Source of the DNA: a virus
Length of the DNA: 37,934 nucleotides
Virus record (IMG/VR): IMGVR_UViG_3300019360_000279
Span: 1 to 37,934 of that record
Reading direction: 5' to 3' (one strand)
The notes under the pieces were generated by a model. That model made no database searches. It saw only the letters and a program-made list of their open reading frames with translations, and was not told the DNA's origin. A program made the position numbers and the translations under genes. Positions 1 through 32,955 of this stretch are shown piece after piece; the first letter of the stretch is position 1; the number at the start of each line of letters is the position of its first letter.

Positions 1-30
1 ATGGGGTCAAGACAAGATCGGCGGTACGGA

Positions 31-303
31 CGGTTCACCTCCGCGTGTGCGGAGACAATAATTATTGTTGACGCCCGTGGCGATGTCCCCGCGGTTCACC
101 TCCGCGTGTGCGGAGACAATGTTATAAAATTCAATCGTATTCGCGTCACTGTCGGTTCACCTCCGCGTGTGCGGAGACAATCAGTGAAAGTTCGCCTTCA
201 AGCCGTTGACGGTCGGTTCACCTCCGCGTGTGCGGAGACAATTCCATCAAGTTTGGCGTAAACGTAAAGAAGCACGGTTCACCTCCGCGTGTGCGGAGAC
301 AAT
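31..303 (-). CRISPR. Type I-E-like CRISPR array, five repeats
   Basis: Five identical 29-bp repeats lie at 31-59, 92-120, 153-181, 214-242 and 275-303. Each begins CGGTTCACC and ends GGAGACAAT on the plus strand, with an internal hairpin (CTCCGC...GCGGAG). The four complete spacers are each 32 bp, giving a strict 61-bp period; bases 1-30 are probably a partial spacer. The 29/32 geometry and a minus-strand repeat end of GTGAACCG (the crRNA 5' handle of type I-E systems) put the sense strand on minus. The leader is therefore expected to the right, where prophage sequence begins instead. No cas genes are in the window. By eye no spacer matches the prophage. Confidence 0.97.
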
Positions 304-350
304 GAGCGCAAACACGATAATTGAACACGTCGGAACACGATAATGCCCGG
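303..350. repeat. Putative Mu-type prophage end with two transposase-binding-like repeats
   Basis: The 11-mer AACACGATAAT occurs at 311-321 and 334-344, 23 bp apart, just inside a TG dinucleotide at 303-304. Phage Mu ends begin TG and carry about 22-bp MuA sites in tandem; the Mu right-end R2 site contains CACGATAAATGCG, very close to the second copy here. The position after the tail fibre genes also fits a Mu right end. The T at 303 belongs both to the CRISPR repeat consensus and to the proposed terminus, so the exact junction is ambiguous by one base. If 303 is the first phage base, the 5-bp target duplication should be GACAA (298-302). Confidence 0.7.
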
Positions 351-388
351 AATTTCATTTTGACACAGTCAAAAAACTTTTGGGCTTT

Positions 389-2177: not shown

Positions 2178-2183
2178 TTTCGT

Positions 2184-3392: not shown

Positions 3393-3399
3393 AACTCAA

Positions 3400-5364
3400 T
3401 TAACTCACAGGCTCATCGGTATAAAACGGAAATGTCACAGGCAATAAAGTAAAGCCTTGTTCATCTGCCGCTCCTGCCCCGCTTGCGGCATTGCTTGCAA
3501 GGCAATCAACAAATGCCTCGTAAGTATCTCCTGCTGACCAATGCGATAAATAAACTCTGTCAGCTTTACTTACATGATACGAATCCATCATCGCGCGAAA
3601 GCTGAACACACGCTCAGGGTCTGAAAACAACTTCATGTCAGTATCTGCAATCCTTTGTGCTAACGACCTGCTCATTACTCCTAAATCAATTGGCTGTAAA
3701 TTACTCGGCTGTCCGCCTTGCTCTTCACGTAATGCCGAGCGGTCTGCTTCGACAGGTTTGCGAGCATAAAATTCATCGTCAATGTCACGATAAAAATATA
3801 GTCGCCAATTCGGACGCTCTTCCATCGCTCGCGGCGTGGCTTCAAATGTCCCGGCAACTATATTGAACCGCACGTTGTCTTTATGTGGGTCATAGACAAA
3901 ATGATGTACAGATGCCCTGTCAGGTGGCAAGAACGTAATTTTCCCGTTTACATCTTGCCAATGCCAACCCGGAGCGCGATACATCACTTCCTCAAAGGCT
4001 TGGAAAGCGGTCATAGCATTTGCGGTCGCAAAGTGCGCTTCGTATCGTTTAACTTGACTGTCTGATGGAAACAGACGGCTTGTAGGAATAATTTCCAAAG
4101 AGCGCGACGGCGAAGACCATTCAAGATGTACTTCAGCCGGACCCGCCACCTCAAAATACTCAAGCTTGATGTTGTAAAGTTGCCCTGCTGTTAGTGTGAT
4201 TTGCCCTGTATTCGTGCGGACTGCGCCGCCTGTCCAATCATCAATGATTAACTGATTATTGACCCATAAACGAACCCCGTCGTCTGTGCGTGTCTGGAAT
4301 GTATAAAGCTCACTGTACTGAGGTTTTACCTGTCCTTCCCAACGCACTGAAACGCTATCCGAATTGACACCTGTTCCCGGCGAGCCTGTTCCCCAATTGA
4401 AATCAACTGTTGCGTCAACACGATTCAAAACAAAGGTTTCAAAATTCGTGCCGTTATAGTATCTACCCGTGAGTCCAACGCCTGTCGCCCCTGCCTGCGC
4501 TCCATAACGAAACCATATCAGTATGTCACAAGCAACTTTGAAATTGTGCCAACTCTGCCAATGAATTCTGGAAGAAGGTAATTTTGCTTCATTGAGAAGA
4601 ATGTCTGCCGCAACACGCGCATTATTGGCTGAGAAAGAATTGCTTAGATAAACGCCTGATGAATTATAGTCCGCCACTTTGCGCCCGCGCATGAAGAACG
4701 CAAACTTCGTAGGCTCACTGCCATCTGACAATGTATCAGGCAACAATCCTTCGACATAACACATTCCGCTGAAAGTGTATTTTGATGTCGGGAAAAATTC
4801 AGGTCTGCCTTGATTCGGGTCGTCATATCCCGCGTCGGCTTTCCAAACTTGCAGAGTCCCTGTTCCCGCATTGGTAATGTTGATTGCACTGCCACCGCTC
4901 GTTGCTGATAGCTGAAAAGTGTTTGTAGTTTTGTTTACGACGAAATACTTGACTGTTTCGGCTGTCAACCCTGCCGAAACAAGCCCGCCACGCGAACGCA
5001 CTCGCACTTCGTCATTGTTGTTGTAGCCATGTCCGTTTGCCGTAAAAGTGTCTGTCGAAGAGTCTGCCGTGAAAGTTTTTAGAACGATTTGCTTTGTGAT
5101 TGTGCCTGGATGCAAACGCCATTGGCGGACGCTTGAAATAAACTCATCAATCACTTGCCCGTCATACTCAAATCTATCCAAGCCGTCACAACCATACTTT
5201 CCGCCACGACACAAGAAAGCAATGAACGCAGTGCGGTCAACGCCGCCCACATTCTGCGTTTCAAAATAGACCAAGCGTGCCGCCGTCGCTTGTTTGCCCC
5301 AAGCATCTGCGGCTGTTGGATTTGCCTCATCTTTTGCTTGTCTTAAAACGAAACCCATCGTCAT
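3400..5364 (-). CDS. Lambda J-like tail tip protein with PA14 domain
   Basis: This 654-residue protein takes the central tail-hub position after a lambda L-like gene. Residues about 297-432 form a PA14 domain: it opens GLTGRYYNGTNF and continues with a TRTDDGVRLWVNNQLIIDDW segment, a LTAGQLYNIKLEY strand and EVHLEWSSPS. PA14 domains bind carbohydrates in many secreted and adhesin proteins, so the insert probably helps bind host glycans. Flanking parts resemble phage tail attachment proteins (RTAFIAFLCRGGKYGCDG near the start; a YRAPGWHWQDVNGKITFLPP segment after the domain). At 654 residues it is shorter than lambda J (about 1130). The frame overlaps the preceding gene by ATGA. Confidence 0.8.
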   Translation of the reverse strand: MTMGFVLRQAKDEANPTAADAWGKQATAARLVYFETQNVGGVDRTAFIAFLCRGGKYGCDGLDRFEYDGQVIDEFISSVRQWRLHPGTITKQIVLKTFTADSSTDTFTANGHGYNNNDEVRVRSRGGLVSAGLTAETVKYFVVNKTTNTFQLSATSGGSAINITNAGTGTLQVWKADAGYDDPNQGRPEFFPTSKYTFSGMCYVEGLLPDTLSDGSEPTKFAFFMRGRKVADYNSSGVYLSNSFSANNARVAADILLNEAKLPSSRIHWQSWHNFKVACDILIWFRYGAQAGATGVGLTGRYYNGTNFETFVLNRVDATVDFNWGTGSPGTGVNSDSVSVRWEGQVKPQYSELYTFQTRTDDGVRLWVNNQLIIDDWTGGAVRTNTGQITLTAGQLYNIKLEYFEVAGPAEVHLEWSSPSRSLEIIPTSRLFPSDSQVKRYEAHFATANAMTAFQAFEEVMYRAPGWHWQDVNGKITFLPPDRASVHHFVYDPHKDNVRFNIVAGTFEATPRAMEERPNWRLYFYRDIDDEFYARKPVEADRSALREEQGGQPSNLQPIDLGVMSRSLAQRIADTDMKLFSDPERVFSFRAMMDSYHVSKADRVYLSHWSAGDTYEAFVDCLASNAASGAGAADEQGFTLLPVTFPFYTDEPVS

Positions 5365-6101
5365 CTCAAATCCATTGGATAATCATCACGTCCACCACTT
5401 CCGCCTGTGCCACCGCCCGTATCCCATCCGCTTCCGCTTGTATCGGAGCGAGTGATTTGGACAAGAGCAAATCCCGGCACCCCTTCAATTCTCCAAAGGT
5501 TAAAATGCTCATCACAGGCATCCTCTGTTTTCAAACACGCCACAGCATCGCCGCCTTGATTTGATTGCCAACCGCAAAAACTGTCATCGGGCGACAGAAT
5601 CCCGTTTGCGTTAAATGTGGCTATACATCTTTGCGTCAATGGAAAGCCGCCGATGATTGCATTGCGCTTGAACAAATCACTTACAATTTTCAGAGTCACA
5701 CTGTTGTCAGAACGGCTAATGTTTGCGTCTCTGATTTCGCAATCAAAATGCTTGTCTAACTGATAGCTCAGTCCGATTTTGAAAGCCTTCCAAACCGCAA
5801 CCGTGCCTTTTTCAATCGAACGCCCACGCGCAAGAATGGTCTGTCCTAACACGCCGTCTGTGTTGTCAATTTTGATTGAACCGCCATCGGGAGCTTGTCC
5901 GAGCGGTTGAGAAATTTGAGGCTTTTCTTTCAAACGGGGCAGATAATTATGTCCATTCGTTGTAATGGCTGATTGTGCAAAATAGAATGACTCTGCCGAA
6001 TAAGCCCCGCTTGCTGGCAGAAACAAATCAATCAGCCAATGCGACACATCCCGCACTCCATTCTTCGCTGATTCAATCTCTGTTGTCATTGTCCGCGCCA
6101 T
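5361..6101 (-). CDS. Lambda L-like tail tip assembly protein with candidate Fe-S cysteines
   Basis: Its position between tape measure and the J-like hub, its length (about 246 residues) and its C-terminal cysteines suggest a counterpart of lambda gpL or the DUF2163/BR0599 tail family. Cysteines at about 159, 176, 189 and 196 (in QRCIATFN, SFCGWQ, ACLKTEDACDEH) could coordinate a [4Fe-4S] cluster, as four cysteines do in gpL. A glycine-rich tail (GWDTGGGTGGSGGRDD) ends the protein. I start it at the ATG at 6101, which overlaps the tape measure stop as TGATG and has AGAGG upstream; a TTG one codon earlier is also possible. The family assignment is moderate; the cluster is a prediction. Confidence 0.7.
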   Translation of the reverse strand: MARTMTTEIESAKNGVRDVSHWLIDLFLPASGAYSAESFYFAQSAITTNGHNYLPRLKEKPQISQPLGQAPDGGSIKIDNTDGVLGQTILARGRSIEKGTVAVWKAFKIGLSYQLDKHFDCEIRDANISRSDNSVTLKIVSDLFKRNAIIGGFPLTQRCIATFNANGILSPDDSFCGWQSNQGGDAVACLKTEDACDEHFNLWRIEGVPGFALVQITRSDTSGSGWDTGGGTGGSGGRDDYPMDLR

Positions 6102-9100
6102 CAATAACCTCTGCGTCTTATGTCGTCTTGCGTGCGTGTTAATCCGTTGCCCATGCCGCGCTCTTCAACGTGCGTGATAACCGAGCCAACAATAGCTTCT
6201 TTGCCGTCTTCGGTCTTAGCACCAACTTTGACAATTTCCGCCGATGTTTTTTCATCAACTCCGATTGTGTTCTGCATATAAATCTCAACATTAACAATCG
6301 GTTGTGAATTGCTTTGAGACTGATTTGAATTGCCCAAAGAAAGCGGTTTGTCGCCTGTGAATCCGCCTTCTGCAAAGCCCGGCACTTTTCTCTGTTTCAA
6401 GTACGGCTGAAGCGGTCGCCAATGATCAGGAGTCAACACGACCTCGTTGCCTGTCAGCCTCGCCCAGAAATCATCCTTACGGTCATAAACACCCGGCACA
6501 CGACCATTGAAAGGCATCATTCTCGCGCCATCCCAGCCCAACACTTTTCGCGCCCAACGTGCGTTGTCGTCGCCGGCAAAAATCTCTGCCCGCTCACGCA
6601 ATCTTTGAAGATTCTTCTGTCTGTTTACCTTGCCACCATCGGCAAAAGTAGGCGCAAACAAATCTGCTCTCGCTTGCCTTGCCGCTTGTGCATCTGCCAC
6701 CGCTTTTAATGTACTAATTTTCCCGTCTATTCTGCTGACATCCGCCAAAGCAATTCGTCGCGTTTTGCTGTCTTTCAATTGCGACATCTGTTGCAAATAA
6801 GAAGAGCGAATCTGTTGCGCTTGTGAGAGTGCAGAAGCTCCATCAGTTTTGTTACGACGCACACTGTCAATCAGTTGGTCTAGCTGGCTAAACGCATCCA
6901 ACATCGCCTGATTACGAATCCCTTCTTCTTGTCTGCGTTTTTTATTTCTGCCTAAGAAATACGCCCCAATCAACGCCACAGCCGCAATCGGAAGCAAAAA
7001 CGGAGCGGCGGCGGCAATGCCGGAAACCAACCCCGCAGGCAAGCCCAAACCTGTCAAAGCTCCCGGCGCAAGCAAAGCCGCCAGCGTACCGCCTAACACC
7101 AAGCCGCCCGCGCCGCCCAGAATCTGACCACCCACAGATTGACCGCCCAACATTGTTCCAAACGTCAACCCAAGTGTTGGGGCAAGTGTGCCGAGAAAAT
7201 TGCCAACGCCAGACAAACTGCCTTTGCCGCCAACAAACGACACCGCTTGTTGCGGCGTCATCTGTCCCGTGCGGCTGCGCGGCAAATTTACCAAACCTTC
7301 ACTCACAGATTTGGGAATTTCAATACCTCCGACTCCCGCACTTTTCACTGCTTCTTTTATTAGATTTGATTGTGAAGCATTGCTTGTAACGGATGACACA
7401 GCATGAGAGAAATTCTTCGCCGTATTCGCCGAAAAATTTCCTGCTCTTTCTGCGCCGGCATTATCTGATTTGCCCTTGCTAAATATGCCAAAAATTGAAC
7501 TCAACAAACTCCCTAAAATGCCACCGCTTGAGTTTTGATTACTACTTGATTTGCCCGTAAGCAGTTCCATGAACTTTGAAGCCGCCCATTCCGCCGCCAT
7601 CCGAATCAAAGCGCGTTTGAATTCATCAACGAGAAAATTCATCAATCCTTTCCACCCGTTTTCAACTGTCGCGTTGATTGCTCCCTCAAAGAAGTTTTGA
7701 ACTTCATCCTTCATTGCCTGCCAAGCCTGACGCGCTTTCTCTGCCTCTTTCATTTGGTCTATCACATCGGCAAGCCGCAAGGCTTCTTGGGCGCGTGCAT
7801 CGTTTATATCCGTAATGCCGGCTTTTTCTAAACGTTTCAATACTATTTCGCGCTCTGTGAGTTCGTTATATTGATAAAGTTTGCCGTTGAGGTCTGAAAG
7901 TAAATCCGAATAGGTTGCAGCAACTTGATTTTCCTTCGATTGTGCTGACCAGCCTTTTGCTTTGATTGCTATTTGAGCAAACAACGCAGATATTTCACCG
8001 AGTTTTTCAATAGGAATATCTAAGTTGTTTAGCTTTAGAATGCCCAGAAATAGTTCTGCAAGTTTTATAGGTTCAGCAGACTCCATACCTTTGATTACGG
8101 CGCTGAGTTCATTCAATTGTCCGACTTGCAATTTGAGGTCAGGCATATCCTCTATTCGCTCTAAGAACATATCCAAAGGCGTTTTGTCTTTGCCCCCAAA
8201 TTGTTTCCAATCGTTTTGCAGACGTTCGATTTGACGCCCTTCTTGTGTAATTGAGTCCGACAAAGCCTTTGCTGAACTTTTAATTTTTTCTTGTCGTTGC
8301 GAATCATCCTGCGCCACAAAGAAGTCCTCAAAAGCCTTTCTGAGTTTATCCAACTCATCCTTTGTATATTTTATTGCCCCGCCGGTTTGTCTCAAAAAGA
8401 TTTCGTATGCAATAGTGGCTTTATTGCTGATGGTTTGTGCGCGTTCTAACTCGTAAGTTTGATTTTTTAACTCTTCAATTTTTCGCTTGATGTTTTGCGT
8501 TGCTTCAGCAGATGCTTCTTTTTTGTCGATGTCATCAGCTAAAGCAATCTTTTGTTCATAAAGTGCTTTGAGTTGTTCGCGCTGTGCCTGTGTAAGCTGT
8601 TGTGTTGATAGTTTTTGATACTCTTGTTCGACAGCAGCTTTTCTTGAGTTGTTGCCAAAGAATTTAAGCTCTCTATCTAAATCCTCAACAGACGATTTAT
8701 ATGAATCAACAGCACGTTTGCCATCGTCAAAAGTTTTCTTTTGTTCATTTTGGGTTTGCTCAACGCTCTTACCCATTTTCGCAACTTCTGACAAAGCTTT
8801 TTTAATTGATTCAGGGAGAAGAGCGAAACGACGCTGGAGGTCAGTTTTATCAAATGAACCAGCGTTAATCGCCCGATTTAATTGGTTAAAGGCAGGGGAT
8901 AGTTGGCGTAGCATTTCCCAATAATCGTGCCCACTGTCTAAACCTTTTTTAAGTTGCTCGTCAAGCTGTTTTGCAAAAGATACAATGCCTTCGTAAGTGA
9001 GAAGTACATCCGCATCCGGCAGCTTTATATTAACTACTTCATTCGCATAGTTTTTTATTGCCGTACCGGCGGCAAGCGCGGCTTTTTCCTGTTCACGGAT

Positions 9101-11512
9101 TTTCTTAACCGATTCATCAACTTGTCGCGCGAGATTTGCTTGTTCCTGTGCGCTCCTCTGAGAGATTTTGTAATGCGCGATAAGTTCTGCGCCGCTCTTG
9201 CCTGTTGCTAAAGCTTGTGCGACCAATATCGCTTCCATCTCACCCGCGACTTTTCGCGCTTCTTCAGATGATTTGCTTAATGATTCATATTGGAAATCCA
9301 AGCTTTTTAACTCTTCTTTCAGGTCAAGCGTTGAGACAGCTTCAGCGATGAAAACAGTCTGAATATCATAACCTTGTTCAATTAAAGTCTGATATTCTCT
9401 GCGCTTCTTTGCGAGTCTAGCTAACTCCGCATCTGCTTGAGATGCCTCTGTTAATTTGCTTTGCGCAGCATTTGCGGCGAGCCTAAGCTGGACTCCAATC
9501 AACTCGTCGTTTTTTGCGATTTGTTTTTCGAGTGTTGAAATCACAAATTCACGTTGTGATTTTTCATCTCCCAGCAATCGCAGATTTGCTCTTTCGCCTG
9601 TACTTAGGGCGTTGATAATGTTGTTGTATCTTTCTTTTGCTTCGGAGGATTTGTCTAAAGAATCTTTTTGCTCTTTCAGCCACTTCACATCATCTTGCGT
9701 TGCGGTTATTGAGTGTCTCAAAGCGGCTGTTCGCTCACCATCTGCAAGCGCGACCTCTTTTACAGCAGTTGCGTATTGAACAAGCAGATAGACAAGAGTC
9801 CCGATTATGGCAATCAACGCAAACCAACCACCTGTCACAGCCACAGCCGTCGCGCCCGCAGTCGCAAATGTTGTGCTTAACCCAATCATTGCACGCCCCA
9901 CATTCACTATGACAGGAATAACAGATTGCGCCGTCGCCATATACGCGACAAGAGCTATACGAGCCGAAGTAATGCCAGCCGCAACACTTGTGGCGTTGAA
10001 AGCCGCCGCGAGTCCAACGACCGCAACCGTAAATGCAACTATCACGGTTTTGTTTTGCGCCATGAACAATAAGGCTTGCGACATTCCCCGTATTGCCGCG
10101 CCAGCCAATTCACTCTTTGTGACTATATCCCCCCACGAAATCAAGAACACGCCCACGCTATTTTTCAATAACTCAAACTGAGCCGCCGCCGTGTTACTCA
10201 TCTTTCTATAAGCTTCTTCTGCCACACCAACGGCGGCAGCATTTTCCCGAACAGCACCCTTTACGAAATCAAGTTGTGATAACAAGGTTTGAATACCGGC
10301 TTGTGCCTGCAAATCAGGAAAGATTTTTTGAAGAGTTCCTGCATACTGTTCGTCCGTCATTGATGCAAGTTTGGTTTTCAACTCGGTCAACACATCAAGC
10401 ACCGGACGGAATTTGCCTGTGTTCAAGTCAACCAATTCAACGCCTATATCGTGCAAACCTTCTTTCGCTTCTTTAGTTGGAAGCTTCCGCAAAAAGTTTT
10501 GAAGGTTGTTGATATTTTCCGCCGCCGGACCCCCTTCTTTTGTGACACCCGCAATCAAGCCGCCCAACTCATCAAATGACACACCTGCCAGCTTTGCAGA
10601 TTGCGTCACTCCACCCAGATTTGCCGCTAACTCTCTGCCATTGACCACACCAAGCTTGACTGTATTAAAGAACACATCGCTTATATGCCCGGCTTCAGAA
10701 ACATCTTTTTTATACGCATTCAGGACGCCACTGATTGCCGAACCAAAAGTTTGCGCGTCTGTCTGCGCCGCAACTGCACCTTTGCTGAATGTTTCGACAA
10801 GCTTCAACGCTTGCGTTTCTGTAACATCAAGTGACGAATAAATTTCATACAACCCGTCAGCCATCTGCGCGGCTGTTTGCGGTATTTGTGTGCTAAGTAC
10901 TAAAAGAGAATCCGAGACTTTCTGAGTGTTTAGTGTGGCAATCGTACTGACATTGGTGATAGCTTGTTCTAGTTGAGCAGATGCGCTTAAAGCCTCCGTC
11001 ACCAATTCAACAATTTGTGCCTTTATCCACCTAAACAAATCTGCTGCCAGATTGCCTGCAAACTCACCGCCTGCGAATCTCTTAAACCAATCAAAAGAGG
11101 ATTCCGATGAGTCAAACTCTGAGCCTACTTCTTTAATACCTTGTCCAAGTTGTTTGAAGTCGGCTAAAGCTTTCTGAATTGCAGGACTGAGATTGCCAAC
11201 GCGCCGATTGTAATCTGCTTGGTCAAAAGAGCCTTGACGTAATGCTTGTGACAACTGCTTGAGTTCGGGTTGAAACTGCCTGAGCACATCACGGTATTGG
11301 TTTAATCCTTGAGTTTGCAGACTTTTGACCAGATTCAAACCAATTTTATCAGCTTGGGTAAATACATTCCTGTCCGTGACGCCGGACATACCCTGCCCGG
11401 CACGCACTGCCGACTCATTCAAATCGTCAAAAGCATTTCTAAGCCCTTTGACCACACTGCTCGCGGCTTGCCCTTCTACACCTATCTTGATTGTCACTTC
11501 ACGCTTTGCCAT
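6101..11512 (-). CDS. Phage tail tape measure protein (TP901-type)
   Basis: At about 1,800 residues this is the longest gene and follows the gpG/gpGT chaperones, as expected. It forms the rod that sets tail length and is expected to enter the host envelope at infection. The N-terminal third carries the TP901 core pattern (LVELVTEALSASAQLEQAIT, then TVSDSLLVLSTQIPQTAAQ-like text). Hydrophobic stretches sit near residues 495-525, 565-595 and 1455-1525, the last glycine/alanine-rich. Long charged helices fill the middle. A segment near 85-140 (ALRQGSFDQADYNRRVGNLS) recurs near 880-930 (AINAGSFDKTDLQRRFALLP), an internal duplication. The ATG at 11512 is preferred; an in-frame TTG at 11536 is the alternative. 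Neither has a good ribosome binding site. Confidence 0.93.
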   Translation of the reverse strand: MAKREVTIKIGVEGQAASSVVKGLRNAFDDLNESAVRAGQGMSGVTDRNVFTQADKIGLNLVKSLQTQGLNQYRDVLRQFQPELKQLSQALRQGSFDQADYNRRVGNLSPAIQKALADFKQLGQGIKEVGSEFDSSESSFDWFKRFAGGEFAGNLAADLFRWIKAQIVELVTEALSASAQLEQAITNVSTIATLNTQKVSDSLLVLSTQIPQTAAQMADGLYEIYSSLDVTETQALKLVETFSKGAVAAQTDAQTFGSAISGVLNAYKKDVSEAGHISDVFFNTVKLGVVNGRELAANLGGVTQSAKLAGVSFDELGGLIAGVTKEGGPAAENINNLQNFLRKLPTKEAKEGLHDIGVELVDLNTGKFRPVLDVLTELKTKLASMTDEQYAGTLQKIFPDLQAQAGIQTLLSQLDFVKGAVRENAAAVGVAEEAYRKMSNTAAAQFELLKNSVGVFLISWGDIVTKSELAGAAIRGMSQALLFMAQNKTVIVAFTVAVVGLAAAFNATSVAAGITSARIALVAYMATAQSVIPVIVNVGRAMIGLSTTFATAGATAVAVTGGWFALIAIIGTLVYLLVQYATAVKEVALADGERTAALRHSITATQDDVKWLKEQKDSLDKSSEAKERYNNIINALSTGERANLRLLGDEKSQREFVISTLEKQIAKNDELIGVQLRLAANAAQSKLTEASQADAELARLAKKRREYQTLIEQGYDIQTVFIAEAVSTLDLKEELKSLDFQYESLSKSSEEARKVAGEMEAILVAQALATGKSGAELIAHYKISQRSAQEQANLARQVDESVKKIREQEKAALAAGTAIKNYANEVVNIKLPDADVLLTYEGIVSFAKQLDEQLKKGLDSGHDYWEMLRQLSPAFNQLNRAINAGSFDKTDLQRRFALLPESIKKALSEVAKMGKSVEQTQNEQKKTFDDGKRAVDSYKSSVEDLDRELKFFGNNSRKAAVEQEYQKLSTQQLTQAQREQLKALYEQKIALADDIDKKEASAEATQNIKRKIEELKNQTYELERAQTISNKATIAYEIFLRQTGGAIKYTKDELDKLRKAFEDFFVAQDDSQRQEKIKSSAKALSDSITQEGRQIERLQNDWKQFGGKDKTPLDMFLERIEDMPDLKLQVGQLNELSAVIKGMESAEPIKLAELFLGILKLNNLDIPIEKLGEISALFAQIAIKAKGWSAQSKENQVAATYSDLLSDLNGKLYQYNELTEREIVLKRLEKAGITDINDARAQEALRLADVIDQMKEAEKARQAWQAMKDEVQNFFEGAINATVENGWKGLMNFLVDEFKRALIRMAAEWAASKFMELLTGKSSSNQNSSGGILGSLLSSIFGIFSKGKSDNAGAERAGNFSANTAKNFSHAVSSVTSNASQSNLIKEAVKSAGVGGIEIPKSVSEGLVNLPRSRTGQMTPQQAVSFVGGKGSLSGVGNFLGTLAPTLGLTFGTMLGGQSVGGQILGGAGGLVLGGTLAALLAPGALTGLGLPAGLVSGIAAAAPFLLPIAAVALIGAYFLGRNKKRRQEEGIRNQAMLDAFSQLDQLIDSVRRNKTDGASALSQAQQIRSSYLQQMSQLKDSKTRRIALADVSRIDGKISTLKAVADAQAARQARADLFAPTFADGGKVNRQKNLQRLRERAEIFAGDDNARWARKVLGWDGARMMPFNGRVPGVYDRKDDFWARLTGNEVVLTPDHWRPLQPYLKQRKVPGFAEGGFTGDKPLSLGNSNQSQSNSQPIVNVEIYMQNTIGVDEKTSAEIVKVGAKTEDGKEAIVGSVITHVEERGMGNGLTRTQDDIRRRGY

Positions 11513-11529
11513 GCTATATTGATTGTGAT

Positions 11530-11763
11530 ATGTCAATCACTAAACTATTTATTGGCGCTGTACTTGTAATGCTTGGCGGATTCATTTTGTTAGTCGCATT
11601 TGTAGCATTGCTTGCGGATATACAGTTTTGGGTGATTACAGCAATTATAGGTTTCATTATTGCAATATCAATCCGCGCGGTTGTACAAGCAATCTATGGC
11701 AAACCAATTCACGGTTTGCCTGTCAATGCTTCAATAAAGCCTCAAACAAAAGCGAAACCCTGA
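11530..11763 (+). CDS. Small two-helix membrane protein, antisense to the late operon
   Basis: This 77-residue frame reads rightward inside the leftward late operon. It fills the 190-bp gap between gpGT and the tape measure and overlaps the GT tail by 41 bp. It has two strong hydrophobic spans (LFIGAVLVMLGGFILLVAF and ITAIIGFIIAISIRAVV) and a polar lysine-rich tail ending KPQTKAKP, a natural layout for a small inner-membrane protein. No Shine-Dalgarno sequence is seen, and the promoter is unknown. It could be a lysogeny-expressed accessory gene, for example for superinfection exclusion, but that is a guess from orientation and topology only. It may also be a chance frame. Confidence 0.5.
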   Translation: MSITKLFIGAVLVMLGGFILLVAFVALLADIQFWVITAIIGFIIAISIRAVVQAIYGKPIHGLPVNASIKPQTKAKP

Positions 11764-12804: not shown

Positions 12805-12831
12805 TGGGTCCGTTTACCTCTCTTGAATTTA

Positions 12832-16257: not shown

Positions 16258-17109
16258 CTAAGACTTGCTTGCTGTCAGCACTGCCCACGCATAAGGTCTG
16301 ACGAGCTTCCCGCCATAAACGTGCAAGCCCTTCATGCCATCGCTGAAACCTTTTTCCTTGCGATAGGCTTCGACCTTTAGAATCTGTTCAGCGTAACTAA
16401 AAGCCATTGGATGCGCTGCAATGATTTTGTACTTTGTGCCTGATGTGTTCGGCGTGTTGTTCGATTGCAGAATCCCAAATCCCGACGCTTCACCAACCAT
16501 GCCGTTGCGAAGCACTGCGTCTGTTTGTGCTGTGCCTGCCCTGACGAACCTGTCATCCTTCAAAAGCAGACCGTAAAACCAAGGTGGCACGATACAAAAT
16601 CTGCCCTCAGTCGGTACATCCGCTTCGGTCAATAGGATGCCTAAGTCAACAAGCTTTTCGTAGGCTGTCGTGGCAGTTGGCACAATCGGTGTTGTGTCAT
16701 CGCCAAGCAGATTTGCTGACGGCACGAGCGAATGAAAACTTGCAATGAATCGGTCTGATTTATCGCGCAAACCATGAGCCGCCCGGCGCATTGCTTCATC
16801 AACCGTGTTCGGCTTTGTCTGCGCTCTGTCAATATCGTCAACTGCAAAGTTGAAGTATTTGCTTTGGTCAATGTTGAGCATCTGCGATGCGTCGTTCAAA
16901 TCTTCCGGCGAGTCAATATCCGTGTTCTTCGTGTAAGTCTTGATGGTTACGTCGCCTATGCTATTGATTTTCACGGAATCGCCAGGCTCACGTATTTCGC
17001 CCTCATAGTCACGATTGACAACATTTGACTGCCCATAGACCAACGCTTTATCCAACGCCGTAAGGATGCGTGCGCTCCAAATCGTCGGAATGAAATTATT
17101 CAAAGACAT
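16258..17109 (-). CDS. Major capsid protein (P22 gp5-like HK97 fold)
   Basis: This 283-residue protein shows the pattern of the P22-coat-like capsid family: NFIPTIWSARILTALDKALV at the start, NRDYEGEIREPGDSVKI, then DQSKYFNFAVDDIDRAQ, and near the end FSYAEQILKVEAYRKEKGF and a LHVYGGKLVRPYAWAVL ending. It follows the scaffold gene, the normal order. The ribosome binding site GAGGTG is good. It should assemble the icosahedral head. No obvious separate maturation protease gene precedes it, which fits a scaffold-driven, non-cleaved capsid. Confidence 0.9.
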   Translation of the reverse strand: MSLNNFIPTIWSARILTALDKALVYGQSNVVNRDYEGEIREPGDSVKINSIGDVTIKTYTKNTDIDSPEDLNDASQMLNIDQSKYFNFAVDDIDRAQTKPNTVDEAMRRAAHGLRDKSDRFIASFHSLVPSANLLGDDTTPIVPTATTAYEKLVDLGILLTEADVPTEGRFCIVPPWFYGLLLKDDRFVRAGTAQTDAVLRNGMVGEASGFGILQSNNTPNTSGTKYKIIAAHPMAFSYAEQILKVEAYRKEKGFSDGMKGLHVYGGKLVRPYAWAVLTASKS

Positions 17110-17894: not shown

Positions 17895-18158
17895 CTAAGC
17901 GGCTATCGGTTGTTTCGTAATCTCTGTTTTAATCCGTGCAAGCAATCCCTGACGAAATGCTTTCTCGCTTCCTAACAGGTCAAAGAATTCTTTATCGGTT
18001 TTATCATCGGGAACGATAAATGACATCGTCAGATTATCATCCGATTCAATTTCGTGTGTGCCGTATTTAATCACACGCTGTTGCGTTGTTCCGTTTTCAG
18101 AAAACGTAACATCAAAGCGGTTGTTACCAAGCGATTTAATTTTGAGAAGCTTTATCAT
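17895..18158 (-). CDS. Small protein coupled to the MuF-peptidase gene; candidate immunity protein
   Basis: This is an 87-residue protein of unknown family. It has an N-terminal beta-rich part (LLKIKSLGNNRFDVTFSENG), a hydrophobic strand (LTMSFIVPDD) and a helical C-terminus (KAFRQGLLARIKTEITK). The gene overlaps the end of the MuF-C39-like gene by ATGA and is followed by a strong terminator, so the two are co-translated and end a transcription unit. In MuF polymorphic toxins the immunity gene usually lies just downstream of the toxin, and this gene has the right size and place. It may equally be an ordinary small head protein; the function is inference. Confidence 0.75.
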   Translation of the reverse strand: MIKLLKIKSLGNNRFDVTFSENGTTQQRVIKYGTHEIESDDNLTMSFIVPDDKTDKEFFDLLGSEKAFRQGLLARIKTEITKQPIAA

Positions 18159-19651
18159 TTTTTCTTTCGTCTTAAAACAAACTCACTCAAAATCTTTAGA
18201 AGTTCTGTTGCTTCCATTTTATATGTTGTTTTGTCAAACGGGTCTTTGATGATTATCAAATCATTCTCGTCAACCCCGTCAATCAAAACAGCGTGTCCAA
18301 TTGCCGAGCCTTTTCTTAAAAACACGCCCCATACTTTTGTGGTCTTACTGATACCTATGATGCGTTGTTCATCATCGTCAAAAAATCCACCTATCCATTC
18401 TACATCTTTTTTCGTTTCTTTGGTATTCAAAAAATCAGAAAGATACGCGGAGTTTGCCCAATCGCCAATGTTATCCAAAATCTCTTGTTGGTTTGTTTTT
18501 AATCCGTAGTGTTTAGCCAGCATCTCACCAATTGCCGAAACACAAGAAGCATCATTGATTTGTTTGGTAATTGAAGCGTCAAACTTCTCGTCAATCTTCT
18601 GCCAATCTCCCAACGAGCCAAATTTAGAAACCCGCGTCTTCATCGCTTTTGAGATGGGGTCAATTTTCTTTTTAGACAAAATCTCCGCCAAAGGTCTGCG
18701 AGTCACTGCCTTTCCGAACCTCTTATCAGTTCTGAACATGACAAAATCATCTAAGGCTAAGTCGCCGTTTTTGTAATGCGGAAATGCCTCTTTGCCTAAA
18801 ATCTTTTCTTTTGTGGCGTCGTCTTGACGTTCAAACCAATCACGCCCCAAGTTGCGTTTCAACTCGCGTCCGGGCATGACGCTAATCATTGTGCATCTGC
18901 AATTGATATGTTGAGGAAAAGGTTCATCAATCGGAAATCGCTTGCCGTCCATAGACAAACATAAAGGACAAGTCCGCGCAGATTTGGAAGCAACCCATTC
19001 CCATTGTTTTATGTTGTTCTCTTTGAAAATTTCCCGCGTCGTATCTCTGCGAACGCGGTTGACTTCCGTTCGTGCGACTGACAAAGCACGGCTTTTAGTG
19101 ATGCCGCCCGTGTCTTGAAGGCGTTTTGCTATGCTCTTAAAATCAGTTCCTAGTGCAACTGCTTTTATAACTTCCTCTTGAATTTTATCAATAACAACCG
19201 GAGCCAGCGTCTGTTCAAAATACTCAATAAGTGGCGAGCCGTCGCCCATGAAACCAACTGCGTTTTCAATCGCACGTTTTGGCAAACTTGCACCGATGTT
19301 GAGTTTTGCGCCTTGCAGTTTTGAAATCTCTTTTGCTTGAGTGATAGCTAAATCTATTGCAGTTGCTTGTTCGCGTTCAATGACAGGAATTATTTTGCCG
19401 CCAAATTTCACCACTTCTTTTTCGACATCCTCAAGCAAAGACGCCAGACGTTGCTTTTGAAAAATCCACGACGGCGAAATCTCTTTTCCATCTTTAATTG
19501 CCTCTTCTATCTGTTTCTGAAATTTAAGGTAAGATTTTTGTAACTCTTTTTCGATTGAACGATATGCCTTGAGAATGTCACGAAAAGTTTGTTCTTCTCG
19601 CTTTATAATACTTGCACGGTGTTTTTTGAGATAATCATCAAGGACTGACAT
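18155..19651 (-). CDS. MuF-type head morphogenesis protein fused to a C39/papain-like cysteine peptidase domain
   Basis: Residues about 150-265 are the MuF/SPP1 gp7 domain: SVARTEVNRVRRDTTREIF, then TCPLC (C228, C231) and PQHINCRC (H248, C251, C253). Such minor head proteins bind the portal and may enter the host with DNA. The 498-residue protein continues well beyond this. Residues about 355-490 look like a C39/papain-fold peptidase: QINDASCVSAIGEML puts a possible nucleophile C370 six residues after Q364, the oxyanion-hole spacing of C39 enzymes; GHAVLIDGV supplies H453; IIIKDPFD supplies D470. MuF proteins with C-terminal toxin domains are known in temperate phages. The target is unknown; a proteolytic role in the capsid is the alternative. 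Confidence 0.87.
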   Translation of the reverse strand: MSVLDDYLKKHRASIIKREEQTFRDILKAYRSIEKELQKSYLKFQKQIEEAIKDGKEISPSWIFQKQRLASLLEDVEKEVVKFGGKIIPVIEREQATAIDLAITQAKEISKLQGAKLNIGASLPKRAIENAVGFMGDGSPLIEYFEQTLAPVVIDKIQEEVIKAVALGTDFKSIAKRLQDTGGITKSRALSVARTEVNRVRRDTTREIFKENNIKQWEWVASKSARTCPLCLSMDGKRFPIDEPFPQHINCRCTMISVMPGRELKRNLGRDWFERQDDATKEKILGKEAFPHYKNGDLALDDFVMFRTDKRFGKAVTRRPLAEILSKKKIDPISKAMKTRVSKFGSLGDWQKIDEKFDASITKQINDASCVSAIGEMLAKHYGLKTNQQEILDNIGDWANSAYLSDFLNTKETKKDVEWIGGFFDDDEQRIIGISKTTKVWGVFLRKGSAIGHAVLIDGVDENDLIIIKDPFDKTTYKMEATELLKILSEFVLRRKKK

Positions 19652-19656: not shown

Positions 19657-19719
19657 ATTGCGGATTGCAGATTGCGGATTTGTTTTGAACTCAGAACTCA
19701 GAACTTAGAACTCAGAACT
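19657..19719. repeat. Two blocks of heptanucleotide tandem repeats
   Basis: ATTGCGG-type heptamers run three times at 19657-19680, and GAACTCA-type heptamers nearly five times at 19687-19719. They fill the gap between the portal stop and the MuF start. Similar short tandem heptamers occur in intergenic regions of some cyanobacteria and other environmental bacteria. The MuF ATG (19651) lies just downstream on the minus strand, with only a weak AGG. Confidence 0.85.
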
Positions 19720-21055
19720 ACTCTTCATCCGTTTCGCCCGCATTAAACGCATTAACAACTGCCTCCGCTGTCGCTTTCTTCAACTCTTTCATGCGCTCAA
19801 TGTCCTTTTCGCCATAGCCCGCTTCAATCCAAAGCTGTTCTTCCGGGACTCCGACAGCCTTTTTCAGAACGAGCGTTTCAAGCAATTCTTTTTGAGACAA
19901 TGCGGCTGGGTCTGTCCATTCAACGAAAAGTTGTGACGCCTTAGCATTGCCTTCTAACAGCAATGCAAATGACATCAAATCTTCCCACACTTGCCCGAAC
20001 GATTCTTGTCTGTCTTTTACTTTCGAGATGAAGCGTGTTTCTGATTTTGACAACGCTTCGCCGGACGGATACTTGGCTTCTGCGAGCGCGAAATAATAGA
20101 GCGGCGTGCCTGTGACCGTAGCCATCTCAATTCTGAATGATTGTTGCACATTAAGAAATTGTTTTAATTCCGTAGCTTCAAAATCTCCGAACTTAACCTC
20201 CGGGTTTTCAGTCACCCATAAACGCTCAACGCCAGCCATGAAGGGTGCTTTCGGCTTGCCGTCCGCGTCATACTCAACATCTACTCCGGTTGCATACCGT
20301 TGACGATACGAAGCAAATTCAGCCGCAACCAACATATCAAGTACGCTCTTATTCAAAGCATCCTGAATCGGCATTGCCTGGTCTAATTCGGAACAACCGA
20401 ACGAGCCAATGTCCGAATTGTTGGCAAAATGGAACACAGGAACAACGTCAAAAGGATTCGTAATTATAGCCTCTCCGTCATCAGTAAACGGGATTAAATC
20501 TTTTTCGTTGAGCATTGCGCCCACGCTACGCGAAATATATTTTTCAATCCTGTCGCTGTAATAAAGATTTAGCCGAAGCTTTTTGTCTATTCTCTGCCAG
20601 CACTTAGCGGCATATAGAATTTTGCCCGGCGTTTCTGCATCGTAAAAGACAGTGCAAGTTGCCGCCTTTTGTGGATAGATTGTTACTTTGCCAGCTGGGT
20701 CAGTCCACACAATTGCGTATGAGTCGCCGTTCTTAATTGCTTCTTTGTGAATCTCCCCTGCACGTTTCCCCATGCGGTTGTTCTGCCAGATTTTCCACGC
20801 TTTAGTTGCTGAATCCGTTTCTCCCTCTTCGACCTGAAATCCCGTTATCGTGAGTTTGTCTTTGACGGCATCAACGACAGGCGGACAAAGATTGTCAGCA
20901 AACTCTCTGAACAACGAGCCGAAAGCGTTCTTGAATTTTTCCGTAGCAAAAGTAAGAGTGTGATTGCCTTTGTAATAGTTCTCGCTCTTTACATAGCGCG
21001 GTTGATTCGTACTGAAATTCTCTATTGCTCGCTTGATGTCGTTGTTCTCGTTCAT
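19718..21055 (-). CDS. Phage portal protein (SPP1 gp6-like)
   Basis: This 445-residue protein has the form of SPP1-type portals: an N-terminal YVKSENYYKGNHTLTF, the conserved FADNLCPPVVDAVKDKLTI segment, HKEAIKNGDSYAIVWTDPAG, FGCSELDQAMPIQDALNKSV, and the YPSGEALSKSETRFISKVKD region that forms the tunnel helices. The portal dodecamer is the DNA entry and exit pore and the docking site for terminase. It lies between the large terminase and the MuF gene, the standard order. The acidic C-terminus is typical. Slightly short for the family but apparently complete. Confidence 0.92.
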   Translation of the reverse strand: MNENNDIKRAIENFSTNQPRYVKSENYYKGNHTLTFATEKFKNAFGSLFREFADNLCPPVVDAVKDKLTITGFQVEEGETDSATKAWKIWQNNRMGKRAGEIHKEAIKNGDSYAIVWTDPAGKVTIYPQKAATCTVFYDAETPGKILYAAKCWQRIDKKLRLNLYYSDRIEKYISRSVGAMLNEKDLIPFTDDGEAIITNPFDVVPVFHFANNSDIGSFGCSELDQAMPIQDALNKSVLDMLVAAEFASYRQRYATGVDVEYDADGKPKAPFMAGVERLWVTENPEVKFGDFEATELKQFLNVQQSFRIEMATVTGTPLYYFALAEAKYPSGEALSKSETRFISKVKDRQESFGQVWEDLMSFALLLEGNAKASQLFVEWTDPAALSQKELLETLVLKKAVGVPEEQLWIEAGYGEKDIERMKELKKATAEAVVNAFNAGETDEE

Positions 21056-21188: not shown

Positions 21189-22625
21189 TTAGAATGTCAG
21201 CAGTTTTCCGCTTCGTTTTGACAACATCAAAACTCCACCTGACACCGTATCAACCTGGTCATCGTGTGTGTCGCCCTTGCCTGTAAACAAACAGGCTTCT
21301 TTCAGGAATCCTTGAACCCAAGCCCCGCGCACTATTCTGACTTTTCCCTCTGACGCTCTTGATGACCATGACAAAGCGCGTGAGAGTTTGTCTATTGTCA
21401 CAGGCACACTTTGAATCGGAATGTGACGAACCGCAGGCTCTCGCAAAAGTTCTTGTACAGCCGCTATACCGTGCAATGCTTTTTCAACTCCGTGCCGCGT
21501 TCGCTTTTCATTTGGACTACGCATTGTCTTAATCATCTCGCGCCTTGCATCGGGCCACTCCCAACGACCATGAACCATGTCACGAATCCAAAGATTTCCT
21601 TCCGCGTCAAATGCAATCGCCACACAAGCTGTGTAATCAGCCGTTGTCTTAATTGATGCCGCCAAATCCCAATACCGAACCCAACGCAATCCGTCCGGTG
21701 CTTTGTCACGAATCGAATCTTTGAACCAATCAAGCTTAAAGACTGCACCTTCGTTTGGCACAGGTTGTTGTTGATACTGACTTGACCATTCGTAAGGCAC
21801 TTGCTTTGCTTTGATTCGTGCGAGCTGTTCAGAATTAAAACGCTCAGGGCAAAGAGCTTCACCGACTGCGCGACCGAGCGGGTCATTCTCTTCTGCTAAT
21901 GCAGGCAGTGAAACAATCTCCCAAGTGTCGCCGCCTTCTTCTTGCTCTTCTAAGAGTTGCCCTGATAAATCGTGTGTGTGCCAGCGTGTGTTCATCATTA
22001 CGATTGCACAACCCGGTTCTTGCCTTGTGTAGAGTGCAGCATCAAACCATTCTTTGACGTTATCTCTGTGAGTATCGCTTTCGGCTTCCATTCTGTTTTT
22101 GATTGAGTCGTCAACCAAAATCAAATCCGCGCCGTATCCGACAACGCCACTGCCACGCGACACAGCCAACACGCCGCCGCCGTCTATGGTTTCCCATTCT
22201 TCTGTAGCGTTCTTTTCTTTTGACAGAGCGACGCGCCCGGCAAGCAATCGTTTAATTTCCCGTGAGAATTTGTTTGCGAGTTTTTTCCCGTAACAACCTA
22301 TGACTATTCTAAGTTTCGGGTTTCGCTCCAACCGCCACGCAGCATAGAACACAGTAACGATTGTGGATTTGCCGTGACGTGGCGGCGCGAACAACATCAA
22401 CCGGTCAGTCTCTTTGTCTGTGATTCGTTGAAGTTGTTTGCCAATGAATTTTTGATATGTCCAGTCCCAAGTAAAATTTGGTGAACGCTCTTTACACCAT
22501 GAAAGAAAATCGGCAGCGTCTTTTTTGCTGATGCCGAGACGTTCTTCCGTACGGCGAACGGCAGAACGAACGCGCTCTTCTGCTTCTTGCTCTTTTTTAA
22601 CTCTCTTTAGAATTGACGTTGGCAT
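21189..22625 (-). CDS. terL: Terminase large subunit
   Basis: This is the packaging ATPase-nuclease. From the ATG at 22625 (478 residues) Walker A is PPRHGKS near 81-87, Walker B with catalytic acids is LILVDD near 170-175, and coupling text MNTRWHTHDL follows. The RNase H-like nuclease begins with YWDLA (D near 322), and the late acidic motif is GDTHDDQVDT. Transposable phages package by headful from integrated copies, taking host DNA with the ends. An in-frame TTG at 22646 gives a form 7 residues longer. The start lies inside the preceding gene, so translation is coupled. A 133-bp gap without a gene follows before the portal. Confidence 0.95.
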   Translation of the reverse strand: MPTSILKRVKKEQEAEERVRSAVRRTEERLGISKKDAADFLSWCKERSPNFTWDWTYQKFIGKQLQRITDKETDRLMLFAPPRHGKSTIVTVFYAAWRLERNPKLRIVIGCYGKKLANKFSREIKRLLAGRVALSKEKNATEEWETIDGGGVLAVSRGSGVVGYGADLILVDDSIKNRMEAESDTHRDNVKEWFDAALYTRQEPGCAIVMMNTRWHTHDLSGQLLEEQEEGGDTWEIVSLPALAEENDPLGRAVGEALCPERFNSEQLARIKAKQVPYEWSSQYQQQPVPNEGAVFKLDWFKDSIRDKAPDGLRWVRYWDLAASIKTTADYTACVAIAFDAEGNLWIRDMVHGRWEWPDARREMIKTMRSPNEKRTRHGVEKALHGIAAVQELLREPAVRHIPIQSVPVTIDKLSRALSWSSRASEGKVRIVRGAWVQGFLKEACLFTGKGDTHDDQVDTVSGGVLMLSKRSGKLLTF

Positions 22626-23157
22626 AATGCGCTCGCGCTTTTTCAAAGAGCGGCTCGTGAATCTTGATTAATTCTTTAGTTGCATTGTCAGACAGTGAAG
22701 GCAACCATTCCAACAGCCTGTCAAAGAAAGCCGCAAAACCCTCTATATTTTCTCGTGCCGATTCCAATTTCATCAGCGCGTCAATTTCAAGTTTGCAGTA
22801 ATCTCTGTGCTGATAAACAAGGTCTTTGTTGTTACAACCGTCCGCGTCTAATTTTGTGCTGATTGTTTCGCGTTTCTGTTTGATGTCCAGGAAAAGACTT
22901 TCAGCCGCATTTGTCGCATTCGTGCGTAGCTTGTTAGCAATGTGTAGTTGAAGTGCTTTTTCCCATCCGTACTTTGCAATCCAACCCTCTTGAATATCGC
23001 CGTTTTTAAGTTTCCGGGAAAATAGAATCTGTTTACGCCAACCAGCCCAACCTTTGGCTTGCATCTCTTTCTCAATCAAGTCAAAGTGTTGACCGTTGTA
23101 TTGCAGATAAAGCTGAAACGCATCTTCAATACATTCTGGCGGACGTTTTAACGGCAT
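22597..23157 (-). CDS. Putative terminase small subunit
   Basis: A 186-residue protein immediately upstream of, and overlapping, the large terminase gene. The N-terminal 75 residues (RPPECIEDAFQLYLQYNGQ, then EKEMQAKGWAGWRKQILFSR and GWIAKYGWEKAL) look like a small helix-turn-helix DNA-binding unit of the kind that recognises packaging sites. The C-terminal part is helical and acidic, as in oligomerising small terminases. The start is taken at ATG 23157, with GGAAG six bases upstream, rather than a TTG two codons earlier. The call depends on position plus the apparent HTH. Confidence 0.7.
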   Translation of the reverse strand: MPLKRPPECIEDAFQLYLQYNGQHFDLIEKEMQAKGWAGWRKQILFSRKLKNGDIQEGWIAKYGWEKALQLHIANKLRTNATNAAESLFLDIKQKRETISTKLDADGCNNKDLVYQHRDYCKLEIDALMKLESARENIEGFAAFFDRLLEWLPSLSDNATKELIKIHEPLFEKARAHYANVNSKES

Positions 23158-24232: not shown

Positions 24233-25237
24233 TCACTTGACGTTTTTGCGATTTGGGTCACTAGCGATAAATTTTCTCACTACTTCATCAATCGTGTTTC
24301 TAAAGACAACTGCGAGAATGGTTGCCATGCCAAACACAAAAGCCAGTAAGAGCATTCCTTTTTCACTTGTAAGAAAAGCCCAGACACCAGTGCCACCAGC
24401 TATCAGAGTTCCAAAAATCTCGCCATACCAACGCTTGACTCCGGTTGGTCCGACCTGAGTGGCAGGCGCGTCCGGCGAATCGCCTAACGGCTTTTGTTCG
24501 GTTGAGATTTCCTGCTCTGTCTTGATTGTCTTCGTTTGTTGATTTCCCGTAGTTTCTGAATACCCTCGAAAACCGTCCACGCTATCATTGCCAGCCGAAA
24601 AATCTTCATCGTCATTCTCCAAACTGAAATTGATAATGCTTTCAAAGTGTGTTGCTGTTTCGGCAATCTTTCGTCCCTTCTTGCGCTTATCACCGTTCAC
24701 GATTTCGCGTGCGTTGTAGAAATCGCTTGCATGGTCATTGATGTACCTGTCAAGAGTGTGAGGTTTGTCGTTTTCATCTTTGCGATACAAACCTTTCGTC
24801 ATGCCGATAAGTAGAGCTTCATAAGCCCACTTTGGCTCAAGCAATAAAGCTGGCTCTTTAACAAACAAATCACCGACACCACACGCATTGCCAACAGTGA
24901 GATAGTTATCTTCCCATGTCGTCTGCACTAATCCGCGTCCGTAGTAACCCGTGAACCAATACCGGTCTTGATTAGCTCTGCGTGGCGACCCTGCAAGTTC
25001 GCGTGTTTCTTTTACAGGCTGAAATTCAGTCCAAACACGATTAACCCGTTTGCCTGACTCATGCTTTGCTGTCGCTAAGATGTAAGAGAATTGCGGAATA
25101 TTCTTTAACCGCGTTTCTGTGTCAAAACGGTCAAGAATATAGTTCAAGCCATCAACCGTGCGTTGAGATTTAATCTCTCCGAATCGCTCACGATATGCGC
25201 TGTAAAACTTCTCTCTATTTAACCTCAGTCCATCCAT
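24233..25237 (-). CDS. Endolysin (GH19/lysozyme-like) with C-terminal two-span membrane domain
   Basis: Residues 1-200 form a muralytic domain: FSYILATAKHESGKRVNRVW places a likely catalytic Glu in KHESG, and YYGRGLVQTTWEDNY is the conserved substrate-cleft motif of GH19-type phage lysozymes. A polar linker (about 205-262) rich in Glu, Thr and Gln follows. Residues about 271-289 and 294-312 are two hydrophobic spans (IFGTLIAGGTGVWAFLTS, then GMLLLAFVFGMATILAVVF), with a charged tail. No N-terminal signal peptide is seen. The membrane part could act as a holin or pinholin, or tether the enzyme. No separate clear holin gene is present nearby, which supports a fused function. Confidence 0.87.
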   Translation of the reverse strand: MDGLRLNREKFYSAYRERFGEIKSQRTVDGLNYILDRFDTETRLKNIPQFSYILATAKHESGKRVNRVWTEFQPVKETRELAGSPRRANQDRYWFTGYYGRGLVQTTWEDNYLTVGNACGVGDLFVKEPALLLEPKWAYEALLIGMTKGLYRKDENDKPHTLDRYINDHASDFYNAREIVNGDKRKKGRKIAETATHFESIINFSLENDDEDFSAGNDSVDGFRGYSETTGNQQTKTIKTEQEISTEQKPLGDSPDAPATQVGPTGVKRWYGEIFGTLIAGGTGVWAFLTSEKGMLLLAFVFGMATILAVVFRNTIDEVVRKFIASDPNRKNVK

Positions 25238-29431: not shown

Positions 29432-29694
29432 CAGACAATTCAACGACACAAAATCAGCCCCGTGACATTCAGAGTTATCTGAAAACGACTCTTGAGATTT
29501 TCGAGTACGGTTTCACGAGCATTGCAGTTTTGTCGCATCAATCGCCAGCGTGGTTGGACGCAAAATTAACCACTCTGTGCGAGCGCGTGCGAACGTCAAC
29601 AGACGAAGAGTTTTCACGCATCGCCGGAAAGTTCATGTATCGAATCGCTCTGACTCTGAATTGGAAAACGAACGCGAATAGGAGGATTCAATGA
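29428..29694 (+). CDS. Hypothetical early protein
   Basis: An 88-residue protein, ATGA-coupled on both sides (to 29036-29431 and to GemA). IQSYLKTTLEIFEYGFTSIA and AWLDAKLTTLCERVRTSTDE are helical segments. The upstream bases CAGGAGG end 13 bp before the ATG. No domain recognised; context suggests an accessory of early phage development. Confidence 0.7.
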   Translation: MTDNSTTQNQPRDIQSYLKTTLEIFEYGFTSIAVLSHQSPAWLDAKLTTLCERVRTSTDEEFSRIAGKFMYRIALTLNWKTNANRRIQ

Positions 29695-30179
29695 ACTCAA
29701 AACATTGTGGACAACTTCAACCCGCACAAACAGCAATCGGCAACAAATCACAGAAGCAAGTTCAAGCGATATGGGGCTTGGCTCGCAAGTGGAGATTTGA
29801 CCACGAATCTTTGCATGAACTTGTCGCAGATGTGACGGGCAAGGATTCGATTCGCGCTCTGAATAAGAAAGAAGCTGACGCCGTTATCGCACGTCTTGGC
29901 GGCTCGCCGTTTTACGCAGACAAAGCCGGAACGCCACGCCGGACGATTCAATATCGCAGACAAAAAACGGGTGTGGTCCAACTTGAAACAGGCAAGCAAT
30001 TAAAACTCATGCGCGACGTTTCCGCAAAGCTTGGTTGGAATGACGAGACTTTGAAAAACTTCTGCCTTCGCCAAATCAAAAAGCAAATTCCTACAACAAC
30101 CAAAGAGGCACAAAAAGTTATTGAGCCAATGAAAGCAATGCTCGCTCGCAACAAGCAAGAACCAAAGGAGGTTGCATGA
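29691..30179 (+). CDS. gemA: GemA/Mu gp16-family regulatory protein
   Basis: This 162-residue protein matches the GemA (DUF1018) family of transposable phages: QKQVQAIWGLARKWRFDHES, LVADVTGKDSIRALNKKEAD, and AVIARLGGSPF at the start, then a DNA-binding-like segment (LKLMRDVSAKLGWNDETLKN). In Mu, GemA modulates host gene expression and DNA topology. Its presence independently supports the Mu-like assignment. It is coupled by ATGA to the genes before and after, with AGGAGG ten bases before its ATG. Confidence 0.88.
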   Translation: MNSKHCGQLQPAQTAIGNKSQKQVQAIWGLARKWRFDHESLHELVADVTGKDSIRALNKKEADAVIARLGGSPFYADKAGTPRRTIQYRRQKTGVVQLETGKQLKLMRDVSAKLGWNDETLKNFCLRQIKKQIPTTTKEAQKVIEPMKAMLARNKQEPKEVA

Positions 30180-32887: not shown

Positions 32888-32893
32888 CAAACC

Positions 32894-32934
32894 AAAAGGC
32901 AGATGCGATTTCAGCCTACGCATCTGCCTTTTTT
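32894..32934 (+). terminator. Rho-independent terminator ahead of the transposase gene
   Basis: GGCAGATGCG (32898-32907) pairs perfectly with CGCATCTGCC (32919-32928) around an 11-base loop, extended by four A-T pairs, and is followed by six T (32929-32934). It is a strong intrinsic terminator just 10-22 bp before the transposase start codons, so transposase expression from the early operon would need read-through or antitermination, or an undetected promoter. Confidence 0.9.
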
Positions 32935-32955
32935 CTAATCGCAATGGAAAATCCG

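Follow-up and report, generated by a model that had tools for sequence, protein, structure and literature searches.

Does a virus record that opens on a CRISPR array hold a transposable prophage that went into the array of its own host? The stretch analysed here (the window) comprises all 37,934 bases of the IMG/VR virus record IMGVR_UViG_3300019360_000279, with an array in its first 303 bases and phage DNA from 303 onward (Table 1). We are confident, short of certainty, that the record captures a Mu-like transposable prophage inserted in the type I-E array of its host, an acidobacterium that probably belongs to the Pyrinomonadaceae or stands near them. The original prediction of such an insertion gains from the comparisons made here, in which the phage terminus was fixed by homology and relatives of phage and array were found to meet in one genome, G001.

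Table 1. Features of the window (positions are those of the whole stretch)
Feature	Position	Strand	Basis or remark
Truncated fifth spacer	1-30		
CRISPR repeat 1	31..59	-	Minus strand taken as crRNA sense, ATTGTCTCCGCACACGCGGAGGTGAACCG, from a comparison with arrays adjoining cas2e
CRISPR repeat 2	92..120	-	Repeat search
CRISPR repeat 3	153..181	-	Repeat search
CRISPR repeat 4	214..242	-	Repeat search
CRISPR repeat 5	275..303	-	Interrupted by the phage; 28 of its 29 bases precede the cut
Four complete 32-nt spacers	60-91, 121-152, 182-213, 243-274 (in 60..274)	-	
CAA, predicted left copy of the 3-bp target duplication	300..302	+	Predicted from six of six near kin; right copy would lie outside the record
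TG, phage terminus (tail-gene end)	303..304	+	Gapless alignment with five kin left ends, T and G invariant
End site 1, AACACGATAAT	311..321	+	Exact copy; conserved in kin; putative transposase-binding site
End site 2, AACACGATAAT	334..344	+	Exact copy; conserved in kin; putative transposase-binding site
Near-palindrome TTGACACAGTCAA	360..372	.	Present with variations at the same place in aligned phage ends
Last leftward phage ORF	389..736	-	Directed at the array, in crRNA sense; without a match in PHROG or Pfam
Tail fibre-like protein with PA14 domain	3400..5364	-	
Tape measure protein	6101..11536	-	
Major head protein	16258..17109	-	
Minor head / head morphogenesis protein	18155..19651	-	Likened by us to Mu gpF
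Portal protein	19718..21055	-	
Terminase large subunit	21189..22646	-	
Endolysin	24233..25237	-	
Repressor-like protein with helix-turn-helix	26788..27744	-	
GemA-like protein	29691..30179	+	PF06252
MuA-like DDE transposase	32671..34662	+	Homology from about 32944
MuB-like AAA ATPase, DNA transposition protein	34672..35841	+	phrog_296, E=2.3e-19; AAA_22
C5 cytosine methyltransferase	37182..37934	+	Stop codon is the record end

The array consists of five identical 29-nt repeats (CGGTTCACCTCCGCGTGTGCGGAGACAAT) with a period of 61, and no sixth copy was found in the window at up to three mismatches, which bears out the earlier claim that the fifth repeat ends at 303 and is the last. Type I-E arrays have repeats of 28-29 nt and spacers of 32 nt, and the 29-nt repeats and 32-nt spacers of the window are of this size. 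A degenerate repeat search returned four stretches in three genome records. The nearest repeat, identical at 28 of 29 bases, belongs to the Acidobacteria MAG G002, where an array of 40 repeats adjoins a type I-E cas operon (Cas2e, Cas1e, Cas5e, Cas7, Cse2, Cse1, Cas3). In the Pyrinomonadaceae MAG G001, a variant array of 118 repeats similarly adjoins Cse1, Cse2, Cas7, Cas5e, Cas6e, Cas1e, and Cas2e. A Loktanella MAG, the third record, holds only one such repeat, within an array of different consensus. The exact host repeat was absent from every genome searched, and the exact 28-nt repeat had no match in the collections of viral contigs and genome contigs. As the G001 and G002 arrays both show the leader side, the phage can be placed on the leader side of the array in the window.

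The window shares the 61-bp period with both of these type I-E systems. Unlike in the window, no prophage was seen within the G001 or G002 arrays, and in the latter a block of 832 bp that reads as a single open frame lies exactly between two repeats (L009:5269-6100, G002:C41). This block matched neither Pfam nor PHROG families and had no second copy in the G002 genome; it is either long DNA that the array truly captured or the trace of an assembly that jumped from one spacer to another.

The phage terminus was located by aligning the left end of the window with those of five kin: the alignment of these six ends has no gaps over 84 columns, and T303 and G304 of the window are its first invariant columns. 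The twin 11-mers 23 bp apart that had been pointed out previously are exact copies of AACACGATAAT. Taken alone, this motif is rarer than chance in the window (6 matches at up to two mismatches versus 12.5 expected from shuffles), and the end sites are judged real on their conservation: kin share the twin site, its spacing, and its distance from TG, at both ends and inverted. In G423, G426, and G001, twin sites were found at both ends in inverted orientation, and the first 11-mer begins at an offset of 8 bases from the terminal T; G493, G151, and G159 follow the same end plan with more divergent sites. Furthermore, L093 and L094, a distant pair of virus records, agree almost completely from TG inwards and differ outside TG. 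Ends of the type TG...CA with inverted sites were thus read on the left in the window and on both sides in kin. Given the gapless alignment and the inverted twin sites at both ends of kin, positions 303-304 are a phage terminus and not the start of a spacer, as the original prediction had proposed.

T303 is at once the last base of repeat 5 and the first base of the phage, which puts the cut 1 bp inside the repeat. The junction was therefore rightly placed at a repeat edge, but it does not coincide with the exact repeat boundary that had been described. The chance of an insertion at most 1 bp from either repeat edge is about 6/61 (about 10%), so this position is unremarkable. The RNA fold of the junction gave a z of about 0. 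A near-palindrome like TTGACTCAGTCAA recurs, varied but kept, in all six ends of the alignment at about 57 bp inward of the terminus, and one further phage end (L067) carries a second copy further inward.

The phage sequence begins where the next spacer would be expected to start. The same would be seen if an array spacer had been copied from the phage and the assembler had run on from it into the phage genome, and the open-frame block between two repeats in L009 is the kind of product that such a jump could make. We hold this to be a most improbable origin of the junction: the first phage bases past the repeat are the terminus fixed by five kin, and we estimate the odds that a spacer would by chance start on it at about one in 40,000 phage positions. 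In addition, all matches of bases 304-335 to kin at E up to 0.02 fall on the end sites of these kin.

The ends of kin were examined in 11 sequences with 80 to 12,951 candidate end pairs each, from which pairs were chosen by the end-site motif. The chosen pairs (G423, G426, G001, G493, G151, G159, and G499) all ranked among the top four by inverted match, regardless of duplication. No convincing pair emerged for G450, G492 (represented without its middle 12.7 kb), G494, and G496, which stand outside the duplication count. With TG and CA fixed as ends, a duplication of 3 bp was found in every near relative for which both ends could be read, six in all (G423 ATT, G426 ATT, G001 AAC, G493 TTG, G151 CGT, and G159 AAT), and other lengths from 2 to 7 never matched. 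The phage in G001 interrupts a gene that we take to be DinB-like. Removal of 3 bp gave the peptide YAGNWK and scored best of seven lengths (0 to 6) against the four closest homologues, with a margin over no removal of only 1 to 5 bits. Since near kin duplicate 3 bp, the missing right junction is predicted to read CA|CAAT instead of GACAA, which had been expected from a Mu-type 5-bp duplication. A duplication of 5 bp fits none of the six near kin.

The flanks differ among kin, so these phages had inserted at many unrelated sites; ATT adjoins the left TG in three of them (G423, G426, and L067). In distant kin, a 6-bp duplication was found for G499 and, read by eye, for G498. These elements span about 12.3 kb (G499, L152, 1156-13478 in coordinates of its record) and 12.9 kb (G498, about 2139-15007) and carry similar twin end sites. 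The transposase and ATPase of G499 are 25-27% identical to those of the window, and both elements may be transposons or defective phages.

The left end of the phage is its tail-gene end. Late genes (tail fibre, tape measure, major and minor head, portal, terminase, endolysin) are read leftward, and early genes are read rightward from about 28.3 kb (an antirepressor-like regulator, the GemA-like protein, transposase, ATPase, a DnaD-like helicase loader, and the C5 methyltransferase). The transposase matched phrog_310 (E=2.4e-30) and no Pfam family at E 0.001. Its residues D147, D233, and E277, presumably the catalytic triad, are invariant in an alignment of six sequences, some of them partial. 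The gene of the MuB-like ATPase adjoins that of the transposase, as in transposable (Mu-like) phages. The head, portal, and terminase proteins encoded at 15806-22646 are 47-68% identical to those of G450, and the transposase is nearest to that of G423, which makes the phage a mosaic.

Among 119 genomes of the G001 family, 8 had a transposase match, with 58% identity at best; among 396 taken from the phylum, 13 had one, three of these being strong (E below 1e-90) and ten weak. End-like hits at up to three mismatches were obtained in 26 of the 119 genomes, some of them by chance; a reversed control matched in three genomes. Of the phage kin found, the nearest are prophages of the G001 family; the MAG G001 itself holds both the variant I-E array and a related prophage. 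G002, with the nearest repeat, gave no transposase match. As single queries against viral contigs, transposase and ATPase yielded nothing that could be confirmed, and the phage collection contained only four distant transposase matches (23-24% identity). As the kin of the phage and of the array indicate the same bacterial phylum and meet in G001, a chimera of unrelated organisms is unlikely. Judged from these sequence relationships, the host was probably an acidobacterium of or near the Pyrinomonadaceae.

A single junction, the left one at 303-304, lies within the record. No inverted end site was found near 37934 when the window was scanned, and the right phage end lies beyond the record: the distance from the ATPase gene to the right end amounts to 7.2 kb in G423, 5.4 kb in G426, and 3.8 kb in G001, of which the window retains 2.1 kb. 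The first three bases of the record are ATG (inside the array) and the last three a stop codon. Start or stop codons at both edges were found in three of six records checked (the window, G496, and G499), a codon of this type at one edge in one (G492), and at neither edge in two (G493 and G494). An ATG start together with a stop-codon end suggests that the record was trimmed at gene edges out of a longer contig.

With only one phage end in the record, the array could also be a scrap of packaged host DNA on the phage, or the product of a join during library preparation, instead of the flank of a resident prophage; transposable phages package host DNA at both ends, according to the abstract of PMC5977238. 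The array side is, however, at least 302 bp long, and the edges of the record look like gene-edge trimming of a longer contig, so we regard this origin as unlikely. In its packaged-DNA form it overlaps with the resident prophage, as the transposition into the array would be real in both.

For a resident prophage, which we prefer, the transposase would have linked the TG/CA ends to target DNA cut with a stagger one base into the repeat, and the predicted duplication of CAA would flank the prophage. The tail-gene end would face the leader-distal part of the array, with at least five repeats and their spacers parted from the leader or from spacers upstream by the full length of the prophage, which six kin suggest to be about 41-46 kb. 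The far junction, the leader, and the cas genes lie outside the record, and the cas genes would survive elsewhere.

The choice of the array as target was most likely fortuitous. No CRISPR array was found in any of 17 other stretches with kin or candidate ends, which represent about a dozen independent insertions: two (L074 and L087) repeat sites of others, one (L070) is maybe a chance end, and G425a/b come without host flank. Three arrays that served as positive controls (window, L007, and L009) were recovered by the scan; flanks were in part short, and those of G493 (about 99 bp each side) were left out. Arrays occupy 0.16% of G001 and 0.04% of G002, and at these proportions one case among many prophages looked through is unsurprising. 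Furthermore, hairpins showed no excess at seven empty sites. We read the locus as one insertion that was very probably untargeted.

Targeted insertion, by a transposition machinery that prefers CRISPR repeats or tandem palindromes, has a precedent of a kind in phage Ab30, for which the passages of PMC5977238 describe 42 hotspots, 5% of sites, adjoining palindromic and partly tandem BIME elements; CRISPR repeats are themselves tandem palindromes. Against such a preference stand the missing arrays in the other stretches and the ordinary hairpin content of the empty sites, and we consider it very unlikely. It is equally doubtful that the clade prefers CRISPR arrays and so disables memory against itself, as counter-defence by transposition, with the 3-bp stagger as the mark of a distinct transposition machine.

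The 17 stretches also bear on whose array this is. It sits in a virus record and might be taken for a mini-array that the phage itself carries against rivals. Its place is outside the TG terminus, though, near-identical repeats adjoin I-E cas operons in bacterial genomes, and none of the other kin or candidate stretches holds an array; this ownership is scarcely credible.

For an untargeted insertion into the array of the host, the consequences for immunity can be outlined. Five or more units left of 303 are cut off from anything upstream. Having lost any upstream leader, the separated spacers are likely to be silenced, and immunity would be lost with them. The spacer search covered 161 sequences, including phage bases 304-335 as a control and one truncated spacer. 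The four complete spacers of the window matched neither its phage nor the kin compared. Besides the control, the best match of spacers to phages had E=0.002; these hits, among them 22 of 24 bases between a G001 spacer and window 28636-28659, are too weak to build on. With no spacer match to phage or kin, there is no sign that the insertion relieved self-targeting. A scan between 303 and 389 gave no terminator-like site, and as the last phage ORF and the array both lie on the minus strand, leaky late phage transcription into the array is conceivable.

The phage DMS3 offers a laboratory precedent; the CRISPR system of its host, Pseudomonas aeruginosa PA14, is to our understanding type I-F. Deletions centred on the CRISPR2 array arose seven times among 18 evolved lysogen isolates, with phage-mapping reads at their boundaries and 5-bp duplications used to find the sites, in the accessible part of PMC11406979. 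There, self-targeting could select for transposition-linked CRISPR loss in laboratory evolution. DMS3 and the phage in the window thus share that Mu-like transposition physically alters a host CRISPR region, but the DMS3 case comprises deletions under self-targeting in the laboratory and not a simple array insertion (PMC11406979, same passages).

As far as the portions of PMC8705779 at hand go, Mu duplicates 5 bp and B3 6 bp of target. Transposase plus activator, random insertion, and a short target duplication are common to these phages and that of the window, whose near kin differ from them in duplicating 3 bp. The window also departs from Mu and B3 in its late genes, which run leftward, and its early genes, which run rightward from about 28 kb. 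Transposable prophages of Porphyromonas gingivalis similarly end in conserved termini and are bounded by a short repeat whose length departs from the standard, 4 bp in the excerpts of PMC10367356, unlike the 3 bp of the window's near kin, and they live in another host phylum. Titles, opening parts of abstracts, and passages from the literature contained no report of a 3-bp duplication in Mu-like phages or of a transposable prophage inside the CRISPR array of a natural strain, and neither point was reported in the available text of PMC7344871, PMC2612747, PMC4406082, or PMC8616872.

The insertion event itself resembles the laboratory precedent, and the unusual 3-bp duplication, read in kin, appears to be the variant trait. 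Stagger length lends itself to comparison inside a single transposase lineage, with 3 bp in near kin and 6 bp in distant 12-kb kin. The locus would show a transposable phage physically splitting a CRISPR array in a natural sample and not in the Pseudomonas laboratory model, and it points to a route by which immunity may be altered without anti-CRISPR proteins.
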